Source of the DNA: an uncultured Clostridia bacterium
GTDB taxonomy: Bacteria > Bacillota > Clostridia > Peptostreptococcales > Anaerovoracaceae
DNA length: 32,224 nucleotides
Direction of reading: 5' to 3'
Assembly (NCBI GenBank): GCA_947426455.1
Contig: CANEEC010000009.1
Coordinates: forward strand, 1 to 32,224
Shown here: positions 3,108 to 32,224 of the stretch, piece by piece
How positions within the stretch are numbered: position 1 is the first letter of the stretch
How the letters are laid out: every line of letters starts with the position of its first letter
Notes under the pieces: generated by a model
What the model was told of the DNA's origin: nothing
Databases searched by the model: none
Seen by the model: the letters and a program-made list of their open reading frames with translations, nothing else
Translations under genes and position numbers: made by a program

Positions 3108-4235
3108 ATGGAGAAAAAAATAGAAGAGAAAATCAGCGCGCTGAAAGGCCGCTGCCTCATGGAACCCTTCGACTTTACCAGAGAGGAACTGGAGGCACTG
3201 TTCTGTCTGGGCGACGACATCATCGACCATCCCCAGACCTACGCCCATATCTGTGACAATAAAATTTTGGCTACGCTGTTTTATGAGCCCAGCACCCGGA
3301 CCCGCCTCAGCTTTGAGACGGCCATGCTCCGCTTGGGAGGACGGGTGATCGGTTTTGCCGATCCCAAGGCCAGCTCCGTCTCCAAGGGCGAGACCATCGG
3401 CGATACGGCGCGGATCATCTCCGGTTACGCGGATATCATCGCCATGAGACATTGGGTGGAGGGCGCGCCCCAGGCGGCTGCCATGAAAAGCTCCGTTCCG
3501 GTGATCAATGCCGGCGACGGCGGTCATCAGCATCCCACCCAGACCCTGGCCGATCTGATGACCATTCACCGGGTAAAAGGGAAATTCAGCGGCCTGACCA
3601 TCGGCATGTGCGGCGATTTGAAGTATGGCCGCACGGTACATTCTCTGCTGAAGGCCATGTCCCGCTACGAGGACGTAAAGTTCGTTTTCATTGCTCCCGA
3701 CGAGCTTGCCATGCCGCGGGAACTGCTTTCCGAACTGGGGGATTCCGTCAGCTGGACCGAGACCAAAAGCATGGAGGAAGCCATGCCGCTTCTGGACGTC
3801 TTATACATGACCCGGGTACAGCAGGAGAGGTTTGCCGATCAGGCGCAGTACGAGCGGTTAAAGGACAGTTACATTCTCGACCGGGAGAAGATGGCGCTGG
3901 GCAAGGCGGATATGATGGTTCTCCATCCGCTGCCCCGGGTGAATGAGATCGCCTTCGATGTGGACGAGGACAGCCGGGCGCTGTACTTCGATCAGGCCGT
4001 CAACGGCATGTACATTCGCATGGCGTTGATCGTGGCGCTTCTGGGATTGAAACCGGGGGAACTTTGCTGGGAAAAGACGAAGAAGAAACCCTTAACTGCA
4101 CCGCAGGAGGGGAAGGAAATGCCCTGTAACAACCCCAAGTGCGTCACCAATCACGACAGGGAAGTCAGGCCTTTGGCGCGTCTGGCTGACGACGGCGTTT
4201 GGGTCTGCCAATACTGCGATACCGTCATAGAATAA
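3108..4235 (+). CDS. pyrB: aspartate carbamoyltransferase fused to a PyrI-type zinc domain
   Basis: Condenses carbamoyl phosphate with aspartate in pyrimidine synthesis. Residues 1-~315 are a complete catalytic chain: carbamoyl-phosphate loop STRTR (62-66), SVSKGET with Lys93, HPTQ (142-145) and LHPLPR (272-277). After a Lys-rich linker, residues 338-375 carry four cysteines (340, 345, 367, 370) in the C-x4-C-x21-C-x2-C pattern of the PyrI zinc domain (E. coli PyrI has C-x4-C-x23-C-x2-C). The ~100-residue allosteric nucleotide-binding domain of PyrI is absent and no separate pyrI follows. GGAG lies six bases before the ATG. It is the first gene of the pyrB-F-K-D operon. The fusion suggests the zinc module still contacts catalytic subunits while CTP/ATP control is lost; that is inference. 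Confidence 0.95.
4105..4121 (+). promoter_or_regulatory. internal Shine-Dalgarno and in-frame ATG before the zinc domain
   Basis: AGGAGG lies eight bases before an in-frame ATG at codon 338 of the ATCase gene, exactly where the zinc-ribbon module begins. Spacing and sequence are as good as at any real start in this window. It could give a separate 38-residue zinc peptide, or be a relic of a former separate pyrI start. Confidence 0.4.
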
Positions 4236-5252: not shown

Positions 5253-6041
5253 ATGAAAGCAAAGAAAATCGTCACGGCGGAAATTCTGTCCAATCGTGAG
5301 ATTGCAAAAGGAATTATGGAGCTGAAACTGGAAGCGCCGGAGGTGGCTTCTTCCGCCAAGCCGGGGCAGTTTGTCAACGTGTATACCGGCGACAACGCCT
5401 TGCTCTTGCCAAGACCCATCAGCATCTGCGATGCGGAAGGCTCGGTGCTGACCCTGGTCTATGCTGTAGTGGGCAGAGGAACGCAGTGGTTTTCGGAGTG
5501 CTGCACAGGACAGCTGCTTCGGGTTTCTACGCCCCTGGGCAACGGCTACGATCTGTCCGTAGTGAAGGCAGGAGATACGGCGCTTCTCATCGGCGGCGGC
5601 ATTGGCGTCTGCCCGCTGATCAAGCTGGCTAAAGTTTTGACGGCTAAGGGCGTTGCGGTCAGGGCGGCCATGGGATTTCGGGACGAACCGTTTTTAGTGG
5701 AGGAGATGAAAGCCATCGGAGCGGAGGTGGCGGTGGCCACGGATTCCGGCCGGGTAGGATATCGCGGAACGGCGCTGGCGGCGGCTATGGATGCAGGTAT
5801 GGACTGCGAACACTGGTTTTCCTGCGGGCCGAAGGTGATGTTGAAGTTCGTGGCGGAGGAAGCAAAACGACGGGGCCGCGACGCGCAGATATCCATGGAG
5901 GAACGCATGGGATGCGGTTACGGCGCCTGTGTAGGCTGCGTGGTGGACATCCGGATAGAGGGGCAGGAGGAACCTGTTCGCAAGAAGGTCTGCAAGGACG
6001 GACCGGTATTCCGCGGAAGCGAGGTGATTTTCCATGAGTAG
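5253..6041 (+). CDS. pyrK: dihydroorotate dehydrogenase B, electron-transfer subunit PyrK
   Basis: The FAD and [2Fe-2S] subunit that passes electrons from PyrD to NAD+. The ferredoxin-reductase-like FAD domain has the RPISI motif (residues 54-58), the nucleotide-binding domain has GGGIGVCPL (114-122), and the iron-sulfur cysteines are 221, 226, 229 and 247 in C-x4-C-x2-C-x17-C order. Length 262 is normal. TAAGGAG precedes the ATG, so the Shine-Dalgarno begins in the stop codon of pyrF. The 3' end overlaps pyrD by eight bases, which fits coupled production of the two subunits of the heterotetramer. Confidence 0.96.
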   Translation: MKAKKIVTAEILSNREIAKGIMELKLEAPEVASSAKPGQFVNVYTGDNALLLPRPISICDAEGSVLTLVYAVVGRGTQWFSECCTGQLLRVSTPLGNGYDLSVVKAGDTALLIGGGIGVCPLIKLAKVLTAKGVAVRAAMGFRDEPFLVEEMKAIGAEVAVATDSGRVGYRGTALAAAMDAGMDCEHWFSCGPKVMLKFVAEEAKRRGRDAQISMEERMGCGYGACVGCVVDIRIEGQEEPVRKKVCKDGPVFRGSEVIFHE

Positions 6042-28920: not shown

Positions 28921-30546
28921 TCATTTTTGATATGCGATCTCACCGCCGATGACGGTCATCAATGCAGTGATGTCCTTGATTTCCTTTACGGCGCAATTCA
29001 TGTAATCCCGGTCGATGACCACAAAATCGGCATACTTTCCGGCCTGTAAAGAACCTAAGGTATCTTCTTCAAAGCGAGCGTAGGCGGCGTCCAGCGTATA
29101 GGAGCGAAGAACCTCGTATCGGGTCAAGGACTCCCAGGGATGCCAGCCGCCCTGGGGTTCTTCGTCGATGGTACAGCGGCTGACGCCGTAATACATATTT
29201 TCAAAGGGGTTGATCACATCCATGGGGCAATCCGTTCCGGCAGCGATTTTGACGCCTGCGTTTAACACGCGTCTCCAGGCATAGGCGCCCATGGAGCGTT
29301 TCTTTCCCACACGCTTTTCGATCATGTTCATATCGGAACTCAGTTCCACGTACTGCATGGACGGGATGATGTTACTGTCCTTCAGACGCTGGAAGTCTTC
29401 ATCGCGGGCGATCATCAGGTGTTCGATCAGGAAGCGCCGATCCTCATGCTGGGGATTGACGGCTTCATGGGCATCGATGGCCTGTTTGACAGCGGCGTCG
29501 CCGATGGCGTGGAGAGAAACTTGAAATCCGGCATTGTGAGCTTTTTTCATCTCCGTCTGTAAAAATTCTTCGGTGAGACGGCCGCTTCCAGTGTGTCCGG
29601 GGCGATCGTCATATTCTTCTAACAGCCAGGCGCTTCTGGCGCCCAAGGCGCCATCGGAAAACATTTTTACACCGCGATGGGTCAGGCGGCCGTCATGCAA
29701 CCCGATTTGAGGTCCCTTTCGATACATCTCTTCCATAACCGGACCGGGTTGAAGAAATGTATTCAGCCGTACCTTCATTTTTCCGGCGCTGTATAGCTCG
29801 TCAAGAACTTCCATGGTTTCCTGTTCCGGCGGTTCGTCTGCGATCGATTGCACACCCAGGGCTTTGTCACTGTAGGCGGTTACGCCGGATCTCAGCATAT
29901 AGTCTTGAATGAGCAGGAATTTCCTTGCGATATCTTCTTTTGTGTTTTGAGGGATGCAGGAACCCACGGCTCGTCCGGCCAACTCTGTCAGATATCCGGT
30001 GGGTTCACCAGAGGCGTCCTTCATGATTTCGCTGCCCGCCGGAGCGGCACTGTTGCTGTCGATTTTGGCAAGCTTCAGCGCCAGAGAATTGACCCAGTAA
30101 GCGTGACCGCAGACCCGCAGTAAAACCACCGGATTTTCAGGGGAAACGGCGTCCAGTTCCTGACGGGTAGGCATGGAGGTATCGACCCAGCCGGACTGGT
30201 TCCAACCAAGTCCCTGAATCCATTCTCCCGGTTGACGGCGTTTGACCATCTGTCCGACGGCTTCAATGATTTCTTCCTTCGTCTTATTGAAGCAATTAAC
30301 CATAGATTCCGAATCAAACATATCTGCGGCTAACAGCGTATGGATGTGGCTGTCGATCAATCCGGGAATGACAGTATTTCCCTTCAGATCGATAATCTCC
30401 GTTTCTGGGCCTGCCAGCGCCATGACTTCTTCCCTCGAACCGACAGCTGCCAGCTTCTGTCCTATCGTAGCCAGAGCCTCAGCATAGGAAGCTTCGACAT
30501 TCATTGTGTAAATATTTCCGTTTATAAATACTTTTTCTGCAAACAT
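28921..30546 (-). CDS. YtcJ-type (Amidohydro_3) amidohydrolase
   Basis: A 541-residue hydrolase of the COG1574 group. The N-terminal FINGNIYTMN and PGLIDSHIHT carry the metal His67 and His69; PGEWIQGLGWNQSGW, FSDGALGARSAWL, SLHAIGDAAV and AAGTDCPMDVINPF are characteristic later blocks. Relatives act on N-acyl amino compounds or cyclic amides; the substrate is not predictable. I chose the ATG of MFAEKVF with AAAGGAG upstream; a longer frame would start within the promoter. It is divergent from a paralogue sharing the same motifs, and the two appear to be read from paired sigma-54 promoters. Confidence 0.9.
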   Translation of the reverse strand: MFAEKVFINGNIYTMNVEASYAEALATIGQKLAAVGSREEVMALAGPETEIIDLKGNTVIPGLIDSHIHTLLAADMFDSESMVNCFNKTKEEIIEAVGQMVKRRQPGEWIQGLGWNQSGWVDTSMPTRQELDAVSPENPVVLLRVCGHAYWVNSLALKLAKIDSNSAAPAGSEIMKDASGEPTGYLTELAGRAVGSCIPQNTKEDIARKFLLIQDYMLRSGVTAYSDKALGVQSIADEPPEQETMEVLDELYSAGKMKVRLNTFLQPGPVMEEMYRKGPQIGLHDGRLTHRGVKMFSDGALGARSAWLLEEYDDRPGHTGSGRLTEEFLQTEMKKAHNAGFQVSLHAIGDAAVKQAIDAHEAVNPQHEDRRFLIEHLMIARDEDFQRLKDSNIIPSMQYVELSSDMNMIEKRVGKKRSMGAYAWRRVLNAGVKIAAGTDCPMDVINPFENMYYGVSRCTIDEEPQGGWHPWESLTRYEVLRSYTLDAAYARFEEDTLGSLQAGKYADFVVIDRDYMNCAVKEIKDITALMTVIGGEIAYQK

Positions 30547-30577
30547 GACATCTTCTCCTTTCTGTGATAATACACAT

Positions 30578-30606
30578 TTTAAAAATAAAGCAAATATCAT
30601 GCCAAG
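30578..30606 (-). promoter_or_regulatory. sigma-54-type promoter for the minus-strand amidohydrolase
   Basis: On the minus strand TTGGCATG-N4-TTGCT has GG and GC ten bases apart, the -24/-12 geometry, with one departure from the consensus TGGCACG-N4-TTGC. Transcription would begin about 30 bases before the start codon. A competing sigma-70 reading (TTGGCA-N18-TAAAAT) exists at the same place. Confidence 0.55.
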
Positions 30607-30630
30607 ATGATTTGGAGGCAACCGCCTCGT

Positions 30631-30659
30631 CTTGGCACGGGTTTTGCTTTTTGTTTTTT
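30631..30659 (+). promoter_or_regulatory. sigma-54-type promoter for the plus-strand amidohydrolase
   Basis: CTTGGCACGGGTTTTGCTTT matches the consensus TTGGCACG-N4-TTGCT exactly, with GG at 30634-30635 and GC at 30646-30647, ten bases apart. The start codon follows about 64 bases after the expected transcription start. Confidence 0.7.
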
Positions 30660-30722
30660 TAAGAACGCGTTGATTCGTTGAGCATTTGAACGAGGAAAGG
30701 ATAAGATAGAAAGGAGTTTTTT

Positions 30723-32224
30723 ATGAACAACCATATTTTATTTATCAATGGGCGAATCTATACGATGGATCGTCAGAACAGGGTATGTTCTGCAATGGAA
30801 GTGAAAAACGGCCGGATTGTAGCCGTGGGCAGCGATGACGAGCTTCTGGCTCAAAAATCGAAGGACGCTATCGTGAATGATCTGCAGGGTCAGGTGGTAC
30901 TTCCGGGATTATGTGACTGTCATGCCCATGTAGGCGTCAACGGCAGGAAGTTATTTGAACTGGAGCTTTCCGGGAAATCCAAGGCGGAAATTTTGGAAAT
31001 GGTGAAAAATAAGGCGGAAAATACAGCGCCGGGGGAATGGATCTGCGGAGTAGGATGGAATCAGGATGACTGGGAGGAAAAGGAGTTTCCTTTAAAAGAG
31101 GAACTGGATCAAATTACTTCCGTTCATCCGATCAAGCTGATCCGCTATTGCGGAAATGCGTATTGGTGCAACAGCATGGCCCTGGAACTGGCCATGAATC
31201 AGGCATTCGGCGATGAAAAAAATACCGGCGAGGAATTCATGCTCAATGATAAAGGCGAACTGGCCGGAACGGTCGTGGGAACCCTTTGCAGAAAAATTGA
31301 CCGCATCATTCCCCAATATACTCGGGAACAATATAAAGAAATGTACCAATGCATGGAATCTTTCTGCCTTTCTCAGGGAGTTACAACGATTATGGAAAAG
31401 GGCGCTGGTGCGCAATCTCCTCTCAGCGTAGATGGAAGTCAATCTGTCGTAGAACTTCTGCATGATCTCTATAAAAAAGAAGAACTGAATTTGCGCATTC
31501 ACGAGGCTGTTATCGGCTTGGATTCCTATGTGGATGAATGCTTCCACCCCGGTTGGATTTCCCGCTTTTATGATGATCATCTGACAGTTGGAAGTATCAA
31601 GTTATGGTCTGACGGAGCGCTTTCCGCCCACAGTGCGTATTTGTCAGAGGACTATTACGATCAGCCGCATCATCGGGGAAATCGCAAATTTACCGATGAA
31701 GAACTGATTTCTTTGTTCCAGAAGTTCGATCGTCTCGGAGTTCAAATTGAGATTCACGCTATTGGTGATGCCGCTACGACGCAGATCCTGAATTGTTATG
31801 AAGCGGCTTTTGCGGATTGCCTTGACCGTGACCGACGGTTTATTATGGATCACGTCCACGTTCCGCAGGAAGAGGACATATGGCGCATGGCAAAGCTGAA
31901 CATTATCAATTCTACTCAATATATTCAATTTGCCGCTGACATGGAGCTGCTTCCGAAGGTGCTGCCCGCAGCGATGATAAAACGGGTCTATCCCTGGCGT
32001 TCCGTTCTTGATGCAGGCTGCCGCTTGGTCAATGGCACGGATATGGATTTGGTCAGTCCTTTTTTGATGATGTATATAGCGATTACCCGAAGAAACGAAA
32101 ATGGCGTCAATACGTTGGAAAAGAAACCTTATCAGACGCTGAGCCGTATGGAAGCGCTTCGTTCCTGTACCACGGATGCCGCTTACGCCATGTTCATGGA
32201 AGAGCAGCTGGGTTCATTGGAACC
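30723..32224 (+). CDS. YtcJ-type amidohydrolase, 3' end outside the window
   Basis: Five hundred codons are present and the frame is still open at the window edge; the family usually ends near 540 residues. It parallels the divergent gene: FINGRIYTMD, PGLCDCHAHV with metal His67 and His69, PGEWICGVGWNQDDW, LWSDGALSAHSAYL, IEIHAIGDAAT, NGTDMDLVSPF and, last, AYAMFMEEQLGSLE. AAAGGAG precedes the ATG. Identity to the other copy is clearly partial, so this is an old duplication or two recruited relatives. It probably acts on a related substrate under the same sigma-54 control. Confidence 0.9.
   Translation, partial: MNNHILFINGRIYTMDRQNRVCSAMEVKNGRIVAVGSDDELLAQKSKDAIVNDLQGQVVLPGLCDCHAHVGVNGRKLFELELSGKSKAEILEMVKNKAENTAPGEWICGVGWNQDDWEEKEFPLKEELDQITSVHPIKLIRYCGNAYWCNSMALELAMNQAFGDEKNTGEEFMLNDKGELAGTVVGTLCRKIDRIIPQYTREQYKEMYQCMESFCLSQGVTTIMEKGAGAQSPLSVDGSQSVVELLHDLYKKEELNLRIHEAVIGLDSYVDECFHPGWISRFYDDHLTVGSIKLWSDGALSAHSAYLSEDYYDQPHHRGNRKFTDEELISLFQKFDRLGVQIEIHAIGDAATTQILNCYEAAFADCLDRDRRFIMDHVHVPQEEDIWRMAKLNIINSTQYIQFAADMELLPKVLPAAMIKRVYPWRSVLDAGCRLVNGTDMDLVSPFLMMYIAITRRNENGVNTLEKKPYQTLSRMEALRSCTTDAAYAMFMEEQLGSLE

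Follow-up and report, generated by a model that had tools for sequence, protein, structure and literature searches.

Two predicted, near-perfect sigma-54 promoters point in opposite directions between two divergent amidohydrolase genes of a gut bacterium

Divergent arrangements of sigma-54 promoters are already known. In enteric bacteria, hycA and hypA have divergent -24/-12 promoters that are served by a single enhancer-binding protein (EBP), FhlA; the pair is listed for Salmonella in PMC3844500, in which Lutz et al. (1990) are cited on divergent NtrA-dependent promoters. In Desulfovibrio vulgaris, the divergent sigma-54 promoters of the orp1 and orp2 operons are co-activated by one EBP, DVU2106 (PMC3897727). 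For the Clostridiales, Nie et al. (2019; PMC6615313) described sigma-54 regulons with PAS/Fis-type EBPs, targets in amino acid fermentation (e.g., of ornithine), and TTGGCATNNNNNTTGCT as the promoter consensus; the main text of that paper mentions neither amidohydrolases nor divergent promoters. Nor was any description of sigma-54 control of YtcJ-type amidohydrolases found in the literature searched.

The locus described here is an intergenic region of 176 bases (30547-30722) between two divergent genes in the window, i.e., the whole stretch of 32,224 nucleotides that was analysed. Its features, and the two genes on either side, are as follows:

28921..30546, minus strand: gene for a YtcJ-type amidohydrolase of 541 aa (P0001), with its ATG at 30546 (Amidohydro_3, E=2.7e-97; ribosome binding site GAAAGGAG)
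30589..30604, minus strand: predicted sigma-54 -24/-12 promoter of the minus-strand amidohydrolase gene, TGGCATGATATTTGCT, an exact match to the Clostridiales sigma-54 consensus
30605..30632, no strand: spacer of 28 bases between both -24 elements, with a small dyad, GAGGC-AACC-GCCTC
30633..30648, plus strand: predicted sigma-54 -24/-12 promoter of the plus-strand amidohydrolase gene, TGGCACGGGTTTTGCT, an exact match to TGGCAYGNNNNTTGCW
30723..32224, plus strand: gene for a second YtcJ-type amidohydrolase of at least 500 aa, with its ATG at 30723 (Amidohydro_3, E=7.7e-63; ribosome binding site AAAGGAG)

Both proteins exceeded the PF07969 cut-off, which places them among the YtcJ-type Amidohydro_3 proteins, and they are 36% identical to each other, in agreement with their earlier description as paralogues. 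Matches to the YtcJ-type structures PDB 3icj and 3igh span nearly the full length, although these solved relatives are themselves uncharacterised. The plus gene is broken off at residue 500 by the contig end (32224), and the final 140 bases of the contig (32085-32224) occur nowhere else in the assembly. This genome of 1.9 Mb (G000) holds about 15 to 20 YtcJ-type Amidohydro_3 genes, most of them without sigma-54 sites, and the expansion is similar or larger in sister genomes. Elsewhere in the window (3108-4235), one gene joins the catalytic chain of aspartate carbamoyltransferase to the metal-binding portion of its regulatory chain (PyrB followed by a PyrI_C tail).

The intergenic region contains an inverted repeat that looks like a terminator hairpin, which the initial annotation had preferred to read as two divergent promoters. 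We reached the same reading, as each arm of the repeat matches the sigma-54 consensus, its -12 part included. The plus-strand site was found where it had been proposed and reads TTGGCACG-GGTT-TTGCT as a 16-mer (TTGGCACGGGTTTTGCT as a longer stretch on the plus strand). The minus-strand site is likewise present, reading TTGGCATG-ATAT-TTGCT (TTGGCATGATATTTGCT as a longer stretch on the minus strand), but the single deviation ascribed to it did not hold, the T in place of C being the base of the Clostridiales consensus. Both sites conform exactly to TGGCAYGNNNNTTGCW and to GG-N10-GC, so the ten-base spacing reported earlier applies on both strands; measured against TTGGCATNNNNNTTGCT, the minus site shows no deviation and the plus site shows one. 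In this head-to-head arrangement, 28 bases separate TGCCA from TGGCA, and the dyad in this spacer is short enough for chance. Measured from the end of each 16-mer, the ATG is 42 nt away in the minus gene and 74 nt away in the plus gene, and both genes have AAAGGAG ribosome binding sites, as expected from the suitable distances and good ribosome binding sites that had been noted. Transcription is predicted to start about 12 bases past each GC, at ~30578 (minus) and ~30659 (plus), which would give leaders of ~33 nt and ~64 nt, respectively. Thus, two near-perfect predicted sigma-54 promoters really do point in opposite directions between two divergent enzyme genes of this gut bacterium, in the manner of the hyc/hyp type of divergent pair.

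As in hycA/hypA, two divergent -24/-12 promoters share one intergenic region, but there the sites are ~114 bp apart, compared to 28 bases here, the genes are different, and the activator is known. The orp1/orp2 operons also share the divergent sigma-54 promoters, but differ in having an established EBP together with mapped palindromic and IHF sites, whereas the promoters at the present locus are predicted. With the Clostridiales regulons (PMC6615313), the genome studied here has in common the promoter consensus, the type of EBP, and the amino acid targets. Given that the holoenzyme sites are only 28 bases apart, it is possible that the two holoenzymes interfere with each other on binding.

An absence of rpoN from the genome had been named as evidence against sigma-54 control, and a search for RpoN and an enhancer-binding regulator had been proposed. 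The genome does encode RpoN (contig C6, E=2.9e-61), together with six EBPs that have a strong sigma-54 activator domain (C64, C16, C13, C95, C39, and C15) and a seventh, weak match (C78). The EBP on C15, which has the GSYTGA form of the GAFTGA loop, is set apart by comparison with sister genomes. Orthologues of the minus gene, 77-79% identical, were found in the genomes of two sister species, and in a tree the three orthologues form a group that excludes the C84 paralogue (moderate support, 82/97). In G049 (iMGMC-281, a public MAG labelled Peptostreptococcaceae; locus L064), the 79% identical orthologue has an exact sigma-54 site, TGGCATGAATTTTGCT, upstream, and an EBP gene diverges from it on the other side of that site. 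The EBP of L064 has a Fis-type HTH, and its orthologue in the present genome is the C15 EBP (68-72% identical over the shared part, compared to ~42% at most for the other EBPs). In G119 (RGIG4734, from roe deer rectum; L063), the 77% identical orthologue belongs to a tandem operon; no sigma-54 site was found upstream of it, and no match to the C15-type EBP was found in that genome at E<=1e-90. Examination of the intergenic region in relatives, another check that had been suggested, therefore recovered the same type of promoter in L064 but not in G119. With both site and EBP in L064 and here, and neither in G119, the two appear to come and go together in these three genomes. The C15 EBP gene lies at the end of its contig and has no physical linkage to the amidohydrolase pair; no shared end sequence was found that would join its contig to the end of the amidohydrolase contig. 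The stretches examined contained no close orthologue of the plus gene, and it was only in this genome that the two genes were seen back to back.

Activator sites of cognate EBPs mostly lie 100-250 bp upstream of sigma-54 promoters. In L064, a near-perfect dyad of 26 bases, AAAACGTCAATCAACATTGTCGTTTT, is located at 5751-5776, at the start of the EBP gene and ~130 bases upstream of the -24 element of the orthologue, a suitable spot that makes it a candidate activator site. A search of the window for a counterpart of this dyad found none, and 30250-31000 lacks the TGT-N10-12-ACA motif associated with many clostridial EBPs. No recognisable upstream activator site was thus found here, and two orthologous EBPs are too few to derive a motif. 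A second, separate pairing of an EBP with an amidohydrolase was observed at L054 (2965-5806), where a PrpR_N-type EBP diverges from another YtcJ-type gene preceded by a sigma-54 site.

Sigma-54 sites with at most one mismatch were found upstream of five YtcJ-type genes in this genome, i.e., the two described here and one each on C1, where the gene heads a tandem pair, C7, and C95. Further genes with such a site upstream encode a gamma-glutamyltransferase (C7), an oligopeptide-binding protein (C16), and the lysine fermentation enzyme 3,5-diaminohexanoate dehydrogenase (C64). The ornithine cluster ord-ortA-ortB-oraE (C39) has an exact site ahead of it and an adjoining EBP gene; since sigma-54 control of this cluster, with OrdR, has been published for Clostridiales (PMC6615313), it provided a positive control for the pattern. 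YtcJ-type genes make up 5/9 of the assigned targets (P ~7e-9 compared to chance, assuming that ~18 of 1,800 genes are YtcJ-type, an estimate from the family listing and the genome size), a value that is indicative only, because the target list was drawn up after the data had been seen. One further exact site, TGGCATGGATTTTGCA (L059:1166-1181, on C30), has no evident protein gene directly downstream and possibly belongs to a small RNA or a short gene.

We consider it likely that the divergent promoter pair is activated by an EBP, most likely that of C15, and that it places both amidohydrolases in a wider breakdown programme. In this model, sigma-54 RNA polymerase would form a closed, silent complex at each -24/-12 element, and the EBP, acting through DNA looping, would melt both promoters upon a signal; the best candidate is the C15 orthologue of the EBP beside the L064 counterpart of the minus gene. 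Both YtcJ-type amidohydrolases would then be made together, within a sigma-54 programme for the breakdown of amino acids and peptides. The arrangement suggests that the two genes are switched on together, and from the EBP neighbouring the L064 counterpart we infer that one EBP may activate the two jointly; the firing of both promoters and the proposed biological role are likewise inferences. A rather unlikely alternative is that both promoters are real but that the genes respond to separate EBPs, or that just one of the promoters works, in which case the pair would reflect neighbourhood and not co-regulation. The genome offers six EBPs for such a division, another YtcJ-type locus (C95) adjoins a different, PrpR-like EBP, and the searches for the dyad and for TGT-N10-12-ACA revealed no shared activator site. 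However, with the promoters 28 bases apart, a looping activator that reaches one would be expected to reach the other, and by analogy the known divergent pairs hyc/hyp and orp1/orp2 have one EBP for both.

It could also be hypothesized that overlapping sigma-70 boxes start transcription and that the sigma-54 matches are incidental, which we regard as very unlikely. A TTGGCA-N18-TAAAAT pair (10/12) does overlap the minus site, and a weaker pair (9/12) lies on the plus strand at 30571-30600, but such pairs occur near chance level (4 in 1,201 bases, compared to 1.6 expected from shuffles), whereas the two sigma-54 sites together are far beyond it. When the 176-base intergenic region was dinucleotide-shuffled 20,000 times, 24 shuffles gave any site at <=1 mismatch and none gave sites on both strands. 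A pattern search of the 1.9-Mb genome returned five exact matches to TGGCAYGNNNNTTGCW, two of them in this intergenic region; with one mismatch allowed, there were 20 matches, compared to 11 for the reversed pattern. Across the whole 32-kb window there was no excess of weak (3-mismatch) matches, and the claim therefore stands on the two strong sites.

Head-to-head sigma-54 pairs recur in relatives: 27 of the 297 family genomes have them, and the spacer measures 12-40 bases at 13 places and 41-71 bases at 22 places; the reversed control pattern gave no head-to-head match in the 297 genomes. Among the 31 loci examined, 21 sit between divergent ORFs. In three genomes of two genera (L032, L034, and L038), genes for an M20 peptidase and an M19 dipeptidase diverge from head-to-head sites, and these three intergenic regions, of unequal lengths, align in poor register. 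In one genome, such sites are flanked by a pair encoding OrtA (ornithine thiolase) and proline racemase. We considered and rejected the idea of a special, conserved compact spacing, as spacers run from 12 to 66 bases across the loci examined; with spacer length not conserved, nothing points to a special compact device. Finally, it is most improbable that the inverted repeat acts as an intrinsic terminator, as an attenuator, or as an RNA element instead of promoters: it folds stably on both strands (RNA fold z ~ -4) and a T-rich tail follows the plus arm, but the flanking genes diverge, so that no operon ends here despite the stem and T tract, the repeat has no Rfam match, its arms are the two complete sigma-54 sites, other head-to-head pairs in the family retain the boxes while the spacer varies, and by geometry the hairpin is upstream of both predicted starts and would thus be absent from either sigma-54 transcript.

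The divergent sigma-54 arrangement is thus known from hyc/hyp and orp1/orp2, and the possible novelty lies in the link between sigma-54 and an expanded amidohydrolase family. More tentatively, and with some doubt on our part, a gut Clostridia genus with ~15-20 or more YtcJ-type paralogues per genome may have brought some of these genes under the control of sigma-54 and dedicated EBPs; the result would be a regulon, hitherto undescribed, that responds to a signal and serves to break down amides, and the locus described here would contribute a compact promoter working in both directions. In this bacterial family, compact sigma-54 promoters placed head to head recur, and the findings tie an expanded hydrolase family to activators; the sensor domains of these activators could point to the compounds that induce the genes.
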